From: a virus
Reading direction: 5' to 3' (one strand)
Length of the DNA stretch: 43,092 nucleotides
Virus record (IMG/VR): IMGVR_UViG_3300003322_000685
Coordinates: 1 to 43,092 of that record
The stretch's first letter is position 1. Every line of letters begins with the position of its first letter. The translations under genes and the position numbers were made by a program. The notes beneath the pieces are model-generated. The model did no database searches. It was given only the letters and a program-made list of their open reading frames with translations, and had not been told where the DNA came from. This document shows positions 10,838 through 40,627 of this stretch, in pieces.

Positions 10838-11605
10838 GTGAACACCCGTACCACCCTCCCGCTCTTCGGGGAGAACACCGAGCAGCCCGAGGCGGAGACC
10901 CAGCCGCCCAAGCAGCCCGGTATGGCCGCCGCTGCGGCCCGCCTCGTCCCGCACAGGGACGCCCGGCACAGAGGCGACGAGCCCCGCGCCCTCCTCGCCG
11001 TGCCCGTGGATCTCCCGGGCGCGGCCGTGGCCTACGCCGCCGCGGGTATTCGGGTCTTCCGCGTCCGGCCGGACAAAGCTCCGTTCGCGAACTGCGCCCG
11101 GTGCAGGCCGCCTTCGCAGCAGCGACCCAATCCGCTCTACATCGAGCACCGCCCCGAGGAATGCCGGTGCAGCGCACGCACCTGCCACGGGTTTCATGCG
11201 GCCACCACAGACGTGGGCCTGGTGAGGGAGTGGTGGGCCGAGCAGCCGGACGCCAACATCGGGGCGCCCTGCGCCCTGAACGACTGGGCAGTCCTCGACA
11301 TCGACCCCCGGCACCAGGGCGACAAGTCCCTTGCGGTCCTGGAAGAGCGCGTCGGCGTCCTCCCCGGCTCCCTCATGCAGGTCACGGGCGGCGGCGGACT
11401 GCACATCGTGTACCGCACGCCAGGCGTCCCACTGCCAGGGACGCTCGGCCCCGGACTCGACGTCAAGCACAACGGCTACATCCTGCTCGCTCCGTCCGTC
11501 CACAGCAGCGGCAAGAAGTACCGGTGGTCCGGCCACGGCAAGTTCCTGAAGCCCGAGACGCCTTGGCCAGCAGCCCTCACGCCACGAGTTCGGAGGGCCG
11601 CGTGA
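10838..11605 (+). CDS. Bifunctional DNA primase/polymerase (prim-pol) N-terminal-type protein
   Basis: The protein has 255 residues from GTG 10838. Archaeo-eukaryotic primase-like fold: AAAGIRVFRVRPDKAPF (nucleotide-end strand), a Cys-rich insertion (CARCRPP, then CRCSARTCHGFH, residues ~87-127) likely to bind zinc, then WAVLDIDPRHQGD with catalytic D154 and D156, and GGGLHIVY with H189. It would make primers or synthesise short DNA during phage replication. It overlaps the P-loop protein gene by 4 bp. In other actinobacterial elements the two are often fused or adjacent, forming a primase-helicase replication unit. Confidence 0.85.
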   Translation: MNTRTTLPLFGENTEQPEAETQPPKQPGMAAAAARLVPHRDARHRGDEPRALLAVPVDLPGAAVAYAAAGIRVFRVRPDKAPFANCARCRPPSQQRPNPLYIEHRPEECRCSARTCHGFHAATTDVGLVREWWAEQPDANIGAPCALNDWAVLDIDPRHQGDKSLAVLEERVGVLPGSLMQVTGGGGLHIVYRTPGVPLPGTLGPGLDVKHNGYILLAPSVHSSGKKYRWSGHGKFLKPETPWPAALTPRVRRAA

Positions 11606-13473
11606 CCACATCCGAGACGATCCAGCAGGGCGTCGACGCTGCCCTCGCCAAGCTCCAGGGCGGCGGCCAGCCCCAGGGTGCCGGGTCGTTCACGGTGCAG
11701 TCCGAACGGCTCGACGCGTACACGCGCAAGGCCCTCCAGGAGGAATGCGACCTGATCGTCCAGGCCCCGGACGGCGACCAGAACAACACGATCAACAAGG
11801 CGGCGTTCAACGTCGGCACGCTGGTCGGCGCGGGCGCACTCAGCGAGGCAGAGGCCCGGCAGGAGCTGTTGTCGGCGGCGCTGGCAGGCAACCACCCAGA
11901 GGTCAGGGCGCGCGCCAGCATCGACTCCGGGCTGCGCGCCGGGGAGCAGAATCCCCGAAACCCGTGGCCGCCCGTCTCCCGTGCCGACGGCATGCCCGAC
12001 CTCCGCGAGGTGCTGGGCGAGCAGGCGATCGACTGGAGCGACCTGGAGCACGAGTACCCGGAGTCCGGCGGCGAGCCGGCCGACAGCCCCGTCGACGAAC
12101 ACGAGGAGGAGCAGACCGGACCGGCCCCCGTGCCCGGCCTGATCCCCGAGGAGTTCTATGCCGCGCGCCCCGAGCTCGACCACATCCGGCGAGCCGGGCA
12201 CTCGCGCAGCCGGTCGGGTGACGTCGCCCTGCTGTCCACGCTCACGCGGCTCTCCTCTCTCGTGTCGCACCGCATCCGCGCGGACACCGGAATCGCCGGA
12301 TACGCCTCGCTGAACCTGTTCGGCGGGATCATCGGGCCGTCCGGCATCGGCAAGTCCACCGGGGTCGAGGTGGCTGACCGTCTCATGCCCGCGCCTCCCG
12401 AGCTGGACTTCCGTGACGGCCTCCCGCTCGGCTCCGGCGAGGGCCTGGCCGAGGTCTTCATGGGCGTCGTCGAGGAGGAGACGGGCGAGGTCCGCCGAGG
12501 CCGTGGCGGCACCGAGACGCCCGTGACCGTGAACGTCCGCAAGCAGGTCCGCCACAACGCGTTCTTCTACGTCGACGAGGGCGCCACCATTACCCGGCTC
12601 ATGAAGGAACGGTCCGGCTCAACCCTCGGCGAGACCCTCCGCAGCGCCGCCGTCGGACAGACCCTCGGTCAGACCAACGCGTCGAAGGACACCAGCCGGT
12701 ACATCCCCGGCGGGTCGTACAGCCTCGGGCTGCTCGTCGGCTTCCAGCCGGAGACGGTCGCCCCGCTGTTCGAGGAGGTCGCCGAGGGGACCCCGCAGCG
12801 GTTCGTGTGGGTGCAGGTCATCGACCCGGCCATCCCCGACGTACCGCCACCCTGGCCCGGAGAACTGCACGCGTGGAAGAACGCGGCCGAAGCCCCGCCC
12901 GTAGACGAGGCGAGCCGCTTCGTCCTCGTCACCTTCGACGAGTCCATCAAGGCCGAGCTCCGCGCCGCCGACCTCGCCAAAGTTCGCGGCCTGGTCGACC
13001 CCTCGGAGCTGAACCCGTTCGACTCCCAGGCCCCGGTCATGAAGGTGAAGTTGGCCTCGCTGCTGGCCGTCCTCGCCGGGCGGCGGCACGTGAACCCCGA
13101 GGACTGGCGTCTGGCCATGTTGCTCTGGGAGGCGTCGTGCGCAACACGGGATGCGGTCCTGGCGTACAGCGCGGCACAGCGACGTTCCGAGCAGGAGAGG
13201 CGGACGGTCGCACGCATCGAGGAGGAAGTGCGCGTCGACCACGCGAAGCAGCTTGCGGAAGACGCACGCGCGGATCGGGCAGTCGAGCGGCTGGCCAAGC
13301 GCATCGCGCTGATGGCTCGCGATCAGGGGCCGCAGACCCGTAAGTCGGTGCGCGCCAAGGTGGCGGGCCGGGACAAGAAGCACGTGAACGACGCACTCGC
13401 CTACGCGGTCCTGCGGGAGTGGGTCCTTGATGAGTCCGGCCGATATCCACCCGGTCCCGTCCCCCCGTCCTGA
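11602..13473 (+). CDS. P-loop ATPase, DUF3987-like replicative primase/helicase
   Basis: The protein has 623 residues from GTG 11602, overlapping the prim-pol gene. Residues ~35-125 (LDAYTRKALQEECDLIVQAP, GALSEAEARQELL) resemble the primase-associated helical domain found next to prim-pol domains. The Walker A motif is GPSGIGKST at 245-253. A Walker B-like FFYVDEGATI lies at about 321-330, followed by an arginine-finger region (RFVWVQVIDP). The C-terminus is a charged helix with a winged-helix-like end (KVAGRDKKHVNDALAYAVLREW). It probably unwinds DNA at the phage origin with the upstream primase. A repeat-rich candidate origin directly follows the stop codon. Confidence 0.8.
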   Translation: MTTSETIQQGVDAALAKLQGGGQPQGAGSFTVQSERLDAYTRKALQEECDLIVQAPDGDQNNTINKAAFNVGTLVGAGALSEAEARQELLSAALAGNHPEVRARASIDSGLRAGEQNPRNPWPPVSRADGMPDLREVLGEQAIDWSDLEHEYPESGGEPADSPVDEHEEEQTGPAPVPGLIPEEFYAARPELDHIRRAGHSRSRSGDVALLSTLTRLSSLVSHRIRADTGIAGYASLNLFGGIIGPSGIGKSTGVEVADRLMPAPPELDFRDGLPLGSGEGLAEVFMGVVEEETGEVRRGRGGTETPVTVNVRKQVRHNAFFYVDEGATITRLMKERSGSTLGETLRSAAVGQTLGQTNASKDTSRYIPGGSYSLGLLVGFQPETVAPLFEEVAEGTPQRFVWVQVIDPAIPDVPPPWPGELHAWKNAAEAPPVDEASRFVLVTFDESIKAELRAADLAKVRGLVDPSELNPFDSQAPVMKVKLASLLAVLAGRRHVNPEDWRLAMLLWEASCATRDAVLAYSAAQRRSEQERRTVARIEEEVRVDHAKQLAEDARADRAVERLAKRIALMARDQGPQTRKSVRAKVAGRDKKHVNDALAYAVLREWVLDESGRYPPGPVPPS

Positions 13474-13701
13474 GGGGGGGACAGGGGGGCGGGGGGACAG
13501 CGTTTGTCCCCCCTTTCTCTCCCGGGTAACCACCCAACTGGTTTCTCTTCGGAACTATTGCAAGCGCAACCAAGCCTCCTACCTGCACAAACAAAAGATC
13601 AAGATCAACTAAATACCGACTCACATAGCGCGCGAAGGAGGGGGGGACAAACAGCGTCCCCCCTGTCCCCCCTGTCCCCCCCTTGTCCCCCGTGGAGAGC
13701 C
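13474..13701. repeat. Iteron-like 9-bp G/C-run repeats, candidate replication origin
   Basis: On the left, GGGGGGACA occurs at 13475-13483 and 13491-13499, the latter facing TGTCCCCCC at 13505-13513 to form a 9-bp hairpin. On the right, GGGGGGACA at 13641-13649 faces three head-to-tail 9-mers (CGTCCCCCC 13655-13663, TGTCCCCCC 13664-13672 and 13673-13681) and a partial copy at 13685-13691. Between them lies a markedly AT-richer stretch (about 13514-13630). No gene is visible. Iterons flanking an AT-richer segment directly after replication genes suggest an origin; transcript termination is the alternative. Confidence 0.5.
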
Positions 13702-13896
13702 ATGAACGTCGACGACGTCGTAGCCGAGAAGATCGCCGCCGCCCGCGCCCGAGCCGAAGCCACCAAACGCCGACGCGCAGCCCTCACCGCCGCACGACAA
13801 TGCGGCCTCGCCTTCCGGCACGCCGCCAAGCTCCGCAACCAGAACCGCACAGAGGTCCCCCAAGGACCCCAGTCCCAGCAAAAGGAGAACCCCTGA
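13702..13896 (+). CDS. Small basic helical protein
   Basis: A 64-residue frame starts at ATG 13702 with GTGGAGAG just upstream and ends overlapping the SSB start by 1 bp. The sequence is one long basic helix ([25 protein letters not shown]) with a polar tail. It could bind DNA, but I recognise no family. Its place between the candidate origin and SSB suggests a replication-associated role. Confidence 0.6.
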
Positions 13897-14405
13897 TGGC
13901 AGGCGAGACCGTCATCACCGTCGTCGGCAACCTCGTCGACGACCCCGAGCTGCGCTTCACCCCGGCCGGCGCCGCCGTCGCGAAGTTCCGCATCGCGTCC
14001 ACCCCGCGCCGCTTCAACAAGACGACCAACGAGTGGGAAGACGGCGACGCCCTGTTCCTCACCTGCTCGGTCTGGCGGCAGGCCGCCGAGAACGTCGCCG
14101 AGTCCCTCGCCCGCGGCGTCCGCGTCATCGTCCAAGGACGCCTGAAGCAGCGGTCGTACGAGGACGGCCAAGGCGTGAAGCGCACCGTGTACGAACTCGA
14201 CGTCGACGAGGTCGGCCCGACCCTCGCCCGCGCGACCGCGAAGGTCACCAAGAACCCCAGCGGCGGCAACCGTGGGGAAACACCCGCAGGTGACCCGTGG
14301 GCCGGAGGAAAGCCGCCCGCCAGCCAGCAGGGCGGCGGCTGGGGCGCCCCGCCCGCCGGCCAGCAGCCCGCGCAGGGCGGCCACTCCGACGAACCCCCCT
14401 TCTGA
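13896..14405 (+). CDS. ssb: Single-stranded DNA-binding protein
   Basis: The protein has 169 residues. The OB-fold is clear over residues 1-110: [48 protein letters not shown] and [14 protein letters not shown] Gly/Pro/Gln-rich disordered linker leads to the C-terminal tip DEPPF, which matches the conserved acidic tail by which SSBs recruit replication and repair proteins. It coats single-stranded DNA during phage replication. Length is typical for actinobacterial SSB. The start overlaps the previous stop, and AAAGGAG lies upstream. Confidence 0.95.
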
Positions 14406-40211: not shown

Positions 40212-40257
40212 GGTGGGGCGGGTGGGACTCGAACCCACGGCCGACGGATTATGAGTC
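40212..40257. repeat. attR core inside the tRNA gene
   Basis: The 46 bp identical to attL, forming the 3' part of the tRNA from the anticodon loop to just past the acceptor end. Because the crossover restores the gene, integration leaves a working tRNA. Confidence 0.93.
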
Positions 40258-40287
40258 CGCTGCTCTAACCGGCTGAGCTACCGCCCC
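40214..40287 (-). tRNA. tRNA with CAU anticodon (elongator Met or Ile2)
   Basis: This is a 74-nt cloverleaf on the minus strand: acceptor GGGGCGG pairs with CCGCCCC, D-arm AGCTCAGCCGGTTAGAGC, anticodon loop CTCATAA (CAU), T-loop GTTCGAGTC and discriminator A. An elongator Met tRNA and the lysidine-modified Ile2 tRNA both have CAU, and sequence by eye does not separate them. It is the integration site of the prophage. Confidence 0.92.
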
Positions 40288-40442
40288 ATAGCGGCGTGTC
40301 GCGTACATGTGTGCGCGCCGTCTGCCGCAGCATAGCCGGTCATACGATCTCCCGCTCCGGATGGTCGGCTTCGCACGGCTGCTGACCTCGCCTTCGTGTC
40401 CAGGAGGACCGCGCGGAGGGGCGCGTGGTTCCACCGGACATG

Positions 40443-40465
40443 AAAAAGGACCCCAACGGGGTCCT
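40443..40465 (-). terminator. Terminator of the tRNA-Asn genes
   Basis: AGGACCCC and GGGGTCCT (40447-40454, 40458-40465) form a perfect stem with a 3-nt loop. On the minus strand it is followed by a T-run, a textbook rho-independent terminator just past the two tRNA-Asn genes. Confidence 0.85.
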
Positions 40466-40476
40466 CGTTCAGCATG

Positions 40477-40549
40477 CTCCCCCGACTGGACTCGAACCAG
40501 TAACCTGCCGGTTAACAGCCGGCTGCTCTGCCAATTGAGCTACGGAGGA
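40477..40549 (-). tRNA. tRNA-Asn (GUU), copy nearer prophage
   Basis: A 73-nt cloverleaf on the minus strand: acceptor TCCTCCG with CGGGGGA, D-arm AGCTCAATTGGCAGAGC, anticodon loop CTGTTAA (GUU) and T-loop GTTCGAGTC. It appears identical to the next copy. Confidence 0.95.
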
Positions 40550-40554
40550 TCGAG

Positions 40555-40627
40555 CTCCCCCGACTGGACTCGAACCAGTAACCTGCCGGTTAACAGCCGG
40601 CTGCTCTGCCAATTGAGCTACGGAGGA
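40555..40627 (-). tRNA. tRNA-Asn (GUU), second tandem copy
   Basis: It has the same 73-nt sequence as 40477-40549, 78 bp apart with a 5-bp spacer. The pair is probably transcribed as one unit ending at 40443. Confidence 0.95.

Follow-up and report, generated by a model that had tools for sequence, protein, structure and literature searches.

What is the function of the short repeats that face each other immediately downstream of a helicase gene in a virus contig? The window analysed here, by which we mean the whole 43,092 nt stretch of the IMG/VR record IMGVR_UViG_3300003322_000685, carries genes for an integrase, a repressor, a Prim-Pol, a helicase, a single-stranded-DNA-binding-like protein, a large terminase and a portal protein. 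To our knowledge, the replication origins of most actinobacterial temperate phages are not annotated. Judged from sequence and its conservation, positions 13474–13691 are very probably the replication origin of a temperate Streptomyces phage. We assign a probability of roughly 0.87 to the joint reading in which the segment serves as the origin, the helicase binds it through a winged helix, the central core melts and the Prim-Pol lays down primers. Elsewhere in the window, an RHS-repeat gene at the left contig edge (4–2721, + strand) is polymorphic-toxin-like, with a weak C-terminal match to Colicin D (E 1.2e-4, below the Pfam cut-off). One tRNA-Met and two tRNA-Asn genes lie near the right end (40212–40627, − strand), and may be phage-borne or represent host sequence at an attachment site.

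The 9-mer GGGGGGACA occurs six times in the window, always within 13475–13681 and nowhere else in the record, compared with an average of 1.07 copies in dinucleotide shuffles of the whole window. Exact copies and near-copies together are confined to 13475–13691, beginning 2 bp past the TGA stop codon of the helicase gene (13471–13473), and the 8-base core of the iteron is found at background level in the remainder of the window. The original prediction had located the repeats directly after a P-loop primase/helicase gene; the position was correct, with the first iteron at 13475, but the single gene proved to be two, a Prim-Pol gene and a helicase gene, and it is the helicase gene that the iterons follow. 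Within a 290 bp region that begins 40 bp before the stop codon, one 7-mer occurs nine times, a count reached by 0 of 100 shuffles of the region and by 1 of 436 other segments of the window.

The repeats form two clusters. On the left, two exact iterons on the + strand point inwards (13475–13483 and 13491–13499), followed by an inner exact copy on the − strand that points outwards (13505–13513), an arrangement that belongs to the conserved grammar described below. On the right, the inner exact iteron on the + strand points outwards (13641–13649) and is followed, on the − strand, by a copy with one mismatch (CGTCCCCCC, 13655–13663), two inward-pointing copies (TGTCCCCCC, exact GGGGGGACA on the − strand; 13664–13672 and 13673–13681) and a shortened iteron, TGTCCCCC (13684–13691). 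The head-to-tail trio previously noted at 13655–13681 therefore exists, with the qualification that its first unit, CGTCCCCCC, differs from the others at one base. Repeats facing each other across an AT-richer stretch, as had also been proposed, are real: the six exact 9-mers flank a core of 127 bp (13514–13640) with a GC content of 49% in a window of approximately 70% GC. This core, the proposed melting region, contains blocks that are invariant across relatives. Its motifs, all read on the + strand, include CTACCTGCA (13579–13587), the counterpart of TGACCTGCA in relatives and backed by the recurrence of GCAGGTCA in divergent cores, a GATCAAGATCAA tandem repeat (13597–13608) and GACTCACATAGCGCGCGA beside the right cluster (13618–13635). 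GC skew charted along the window showed no inflection at 13.5 kb and gave no support either way, a DNA-level search of phage and plasmid records using 13300–13900 returned no matches, and an Rfam scan of the window found tRNAs only.

Because the iterons are inverted, the segment can form hairpins, and this raises the question of whether its repeats are transcription terminators or attenuators, placed back to back where the replication operon ends. The pair at 13491–13513 forms a hairpin that is followed by TTTCTC, and the entire segment is much more stably folded than shuffled versions of itself (z −5.4). However, only one terminator-like site was found against 1.1 expected by chance, and a terminator needs neither an iteron common to both clusters nor mirror-image grammar, AT-rich core motifs or covariation with the helicase. 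We consider this explanation very unlikely as an account of the segment, whilst terminator activity may coexist with an origin.

The same segment was found at the same place in loci whose helicases are 71–86% identical to that of the window (L001, L002, L003, L006, L007, L013 and L015), and in L005, which was identified by DNA pattern; the host of L003, a close relative, is Streptomyces sp. 378. The pattern GGGGACAAACN{0,4}GTCCCCC also matched the unrelated contigs L010–L012, L014 and L016–L020, which lacked the helicase and were set aside. In four aligned loci, the core blocks AACTAnTGC, GCGCAA, AAGATCAAGATCAA and GACTCnCnTAnCGCGCGA were constant, bar a base or two. The iteron copies of L001 had changed together, GGGGAACA replacing GGGGGACA, and the genes downstream of the segment varied between these loci while the site stayed. 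The primase had also changed without a change of iteron: the same iterons were present in loci with a separate Prim-Pol and helicase (the window, L001, L002, L007 and L015) and in L003 and L006, where a different N-terminal domain is fused to the helicase and no separate Prim-Pol is encoded. As loci that share their iterons can differ in primase type, the helicase is the likely reader of the iteron. Fusion of the helicase to another N-terminal domain with retention of the same iterons was seen in L003, L006 and L058–L060, and represents a natural exchange of primase.

The original prediction had named conservation in related elements as a check on the origin reading. We examined approximately 50 relatives, which came from viral contigs and actinobacterial genomes and included a Nonomuraea plasmid and named phages of Gordonia and Mycobacterium. 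A profile scan of viral contigs yielded 37 loci, and genome searches added a further set. In nearly all of the relatives the layout follows the homologous helicase, with an iteron that differs by lineage, and this conservation supports the identification of the segment as an origin. Where helicases are 30–50% identical, the layout recurs with other iterons, including GGTGGACA, TGTGGACG, GGTGTACA, ATGAGTACA, AGGTGGCGA, CCAGTGGCGG, GGTGTGGCG, GTTGGAAC and CTCTGTACC, amongst more. Named examples are the Gordonia phages Santhid and Reyja (CCTGGAA), Hibiscus (CGTGGAC) and Brylie (CCAGCAAAC), the Mycobacterium abscessus prophage prophiGD12-2 (GCCGACA), Dulem virus 32 (CGTGGCC) and plasmid III of Nonomuraea gerenzanensis (L004; ATGTGGACA). 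In L004, a phage terminase small subunit gene adjoins the replication module, and for this reason the plasmid may be a phage-plasmid. No such region was found near the helicase gene of L044, L069 and Mycobacterium phage Firecracker (L077), nor by the scan of several of the most distant new loci.

The repeat count was unreached by any of 100 shuffles in 31 of the 36 regions tested, a figure counted by eye from the table of results; those of L034, L044, L050 and L052 were reached by some shuffles. Part of the region lies inside or before the end of a reading frame in L034 and L050, and the repeats of L052 fall within an over-long reading frame, as do those of L055 (not among the 36) and L067. 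The L067 site is also very compact, with clusters approximately 30 bp apart and GCAGGTCAGAG between them. The annotations of Santhid (L073, 3838–4068), Reyja (L074, 3772–4002) and Hibiscus (L075, 3574–3846) place a small ‘hypothetical protein’ across the iterons; it is probably not a gene.

The layout has a defined grammar, in which at least two iterons point inwards and one inner iteron points outwards, followed by a core of approximately 95–145 bp and then the mirror image. The full order (> .. < core > .. <) was present in 23 of 32 lineage representatives; when orientations were shuffled, 2.3 of 32 were expected, the highest value in 5000 trials was 9 and none of the 5000 was as high as 23. 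Distances between clusters gather near 103 and near 135 bp. The cores carry motifs of their own whatever the iteron: GCAGGTCA occurs in 9 of 38 divergent cores against 0.0 expected from shuffles, and CGCGAG-type boxes lie near an edge of cores. Lineages differ in whether a TGACC motif is read on the + or the − strand, which suggests that the core module is inserted in either direction. The distance of this motif from the left cluster is approximately 68 or 57 bp, one helical turn apart (L036, L037, L040, L045, L048, L064 and L065 versus L004, L032 and L062). Variation of the iteron by lineage within a constant layout is as expected for an initiator-specific site.

This variation also bears on the suggestion that the G-run iteron could form G-quadruplexes and, more strongly, on the idea that the segment is a G-quadruplex element that works through its G-runs. 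Runs of 6–7 G are present on both strands at the site of the window, but the layout is retained in relatives with the G-run-free iterons ATGAGTACA, GGTGTACA, CTCTGTACC and GTTGGAAC. Most lineages keep the layout using iterons that lack G-runs, so G-quadruplexes are not needed and the G-runs of the window appear incidental. A G-quadruplex element is thus an extremely unlikely explanation.

The Prim-Pol, a bifunctional primase/polymerase (10838–11605, + strand; PF09250, E 3e-30), is the likely primer maker, and the helicase (11602–13473, + strand) is the proposed origin-binding initiator. The latter matched a DNA polymerase/primase phrog (1.5e-31), and Pfam returned a sub-threshold DUF3987 match alone; DUF3987 proteins have earlier been predicted to be helicases of mobile elements, without an origin (PMC5862659). 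An AlphaFold2 model of the helicase (pLDDT 84.8) predicts an MCM-like AAA+ core at residues 187–522, a long helix and, at the C-terminus, a winged helix spanning residues 580–623 (13339–13470, + strand). Its best structural match is the archaeal MCM 6mii, with 267 residues aligned at an rmsd of 4.7 (Z 16.4). PDB sequence searches gave no informative relative, and no SaPI/PICI Rep chain was present among the PDB-sequence profile matches or among the structure matches listed.

The winged helix, delimited from the modelled secondary structure, is the proposed reader of the iteron, and one of its residues covaries with the iteron class. Iteron similarity follows helicase similarity, with partial Mantel values of 0.22 for the C-terminal domain and 0.23 for the helicase core that do not separate the two parts. 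A comparison made column by column did separate them. Amongst 411–420 helicase columns, residue 592 (codon 13375–13377, + strand), which stands at the start of the recognition helix in the AlphaFold2 model, showed the strongest association with the GGGGA iteron class, a class that was defined after the alignment had been looked at. On representatives, its normalized mutual information was 0.58 and that of the next column 0.34. Lysine is present at this position, as in the window, in 14 of 15 GGGGA loci, L051 alone departing from this, whereas 36 of 36 others have arginine. On a tree of the helicase core, the iteron class needs six changes and residue 592 five. In independent pairs on supported branches the residue follows the iteron class in four of five cases and does the opposite in none, which is not significant by a sign test (p 0.125). 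The cores of L036 and L045 are 72% identical, yet these loci differ in both iteron class and residue 592, L036 pairing lysine with GGGGACA and L045 arginine with GGTGGACA.

A prediction linking lysine to GGGG iterons was written down before new loci were examined. All six new two-cluster GGGG loci of the nearer family carried lysine (L110, L112, L113, L140, L145 and L148), although these loci are not fully independent because they belong to clades already seen. The L140 iteron is GGGGGGCGA, and this locus also contains a G tract of approximately 100 bases between core and right cluster, which is either an assembly artefact or real. Most other new loci were without Lys592. In L082 and L094 lysine accompanies other iterons; L098 pairs arginine with a TGTGGGGA-type repeat, and L051 and a few distant loci break the lysine rule. 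It is possible, although we lean slightly against it, that a simple recognition-helix code, in which Lys592 goes with GGGG and Arg592 with GTGG and other iterons, largely determines which iteron is chosen. The code would operate within a modular origin class shared by actinobacterial phages that combines a symmetric iteron frame, a core in either orientation and an MCM-like self-loading helicase, and compatible and incompatible replicons could then be predicted from sequence.

The covariation also helps to distinguish an origin from two kinds of site that a protein other than the helicase would read, the operator array of a phage regulator and a partition site. Repeated intergenic sites are typical of operators and partition sites alike, but the 9-mer is confined in the window to the single interval given above with its 8-base core at background elsewhere, the site persists while the downstream genes change between relatives, and the iteron class covaries with a residue in the winged helix of the helicase itself. 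An operator, moreover, would not need mirror-image grammar or a core. We regard an operator or partition site as highly unlikely.

Our data are consistent with a model in which the segment is an origin and the helicase uses its C-terminal winged helix to bind the iterons in both halves. One ring or double ring would thereby assemble to the left of the AT-richer core and another to its right. Powered by ATP, the two rings would melt the core, and the helicases would then load onto the single strands and move apart to give two-way replication, with primers made by the Prim-Pol. We infer these steps of binding, melting, priming and two-way replication from related systems. A sequence rule that finds such origins would yield candidate mini-replicons for Streptomyces, Gordonia and Mycobacterium. 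The natural series of iteron–helicase pairs would also provide a direct test bed for origin recognition by an MCM-like helicase. We found no paper on this origin class in actinophages in the open-access literature.

Several known systems share part of this organization. The Cch2 helicase of the SCCmec element uses its C-terminal domain to bind short direct repeats immediately downstream of the helicase gene (PMC7581432); as here, the primase adjoins, whereas the Cch2/CCPol-MP system has three iterons in a single set and a D5-type helicase in place of two facing clusters and an MCM-like helicase. The Sulfolobus plasmid pRN1 has an essential origin 3′ of the gene encoding ORF904, a primase–helicase–winged-helix protein, where a large stem–loop is possible (PMC4234260). 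The likeness extends to the archaeo-eukaryotic (AEP) primase, the C-terminal winged helix, the position of the origin and the possible stem–loop, but pRN1 is without iterons and uses an SF3 helicase. Actinobacterial integrative elements (AICEs) such as SLP1 also have a Prim-Pol gene followed by a replication gene (SCO4617/SCO4618, Prim-Pol and RepPP; PMC3218068), whereas the window has terminase, portal, head and packaging genes.

The closest parallel is with the origins of SaPIs and other phage-inducible chromosomal islands (PICIs), which are phage satellites. In PICI origins proven to drive plasmid replication, an AT-rich region 3′ of rep lies between two sets of iterons; it is Pri-Rep-ori segments of SaPIs and PICIs that support such replication, and a 2018 description held that PICI origins resemble no other bacterial replicon known (PMC6092414). 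The C-terminal domain of SaPI Rep recognizes the origin (PMC7581432). The sites described here likewise place two iteron sets around an AT-rich region immediately 3′ of the initiator/helicase gene, with an iteron sequence that varies between elements. They differ in that some of their carriers are phages that encode a terminase and a portal protein of their own, that the putative initiator is an MCM-fold helicase of DUF3987-like type, with an archaeo-eukaryotic type primase either adjacent or fused to it, and that the core has its own motifs. The window itself, with its large terminase and portal genes, does not fit a satellite that relies on a helper phage for its particles. The PICI-type origin layout is present here together with a different helicase family, in actinobacterial phages and other elements, which suggests that this layout is not confined to satellites.
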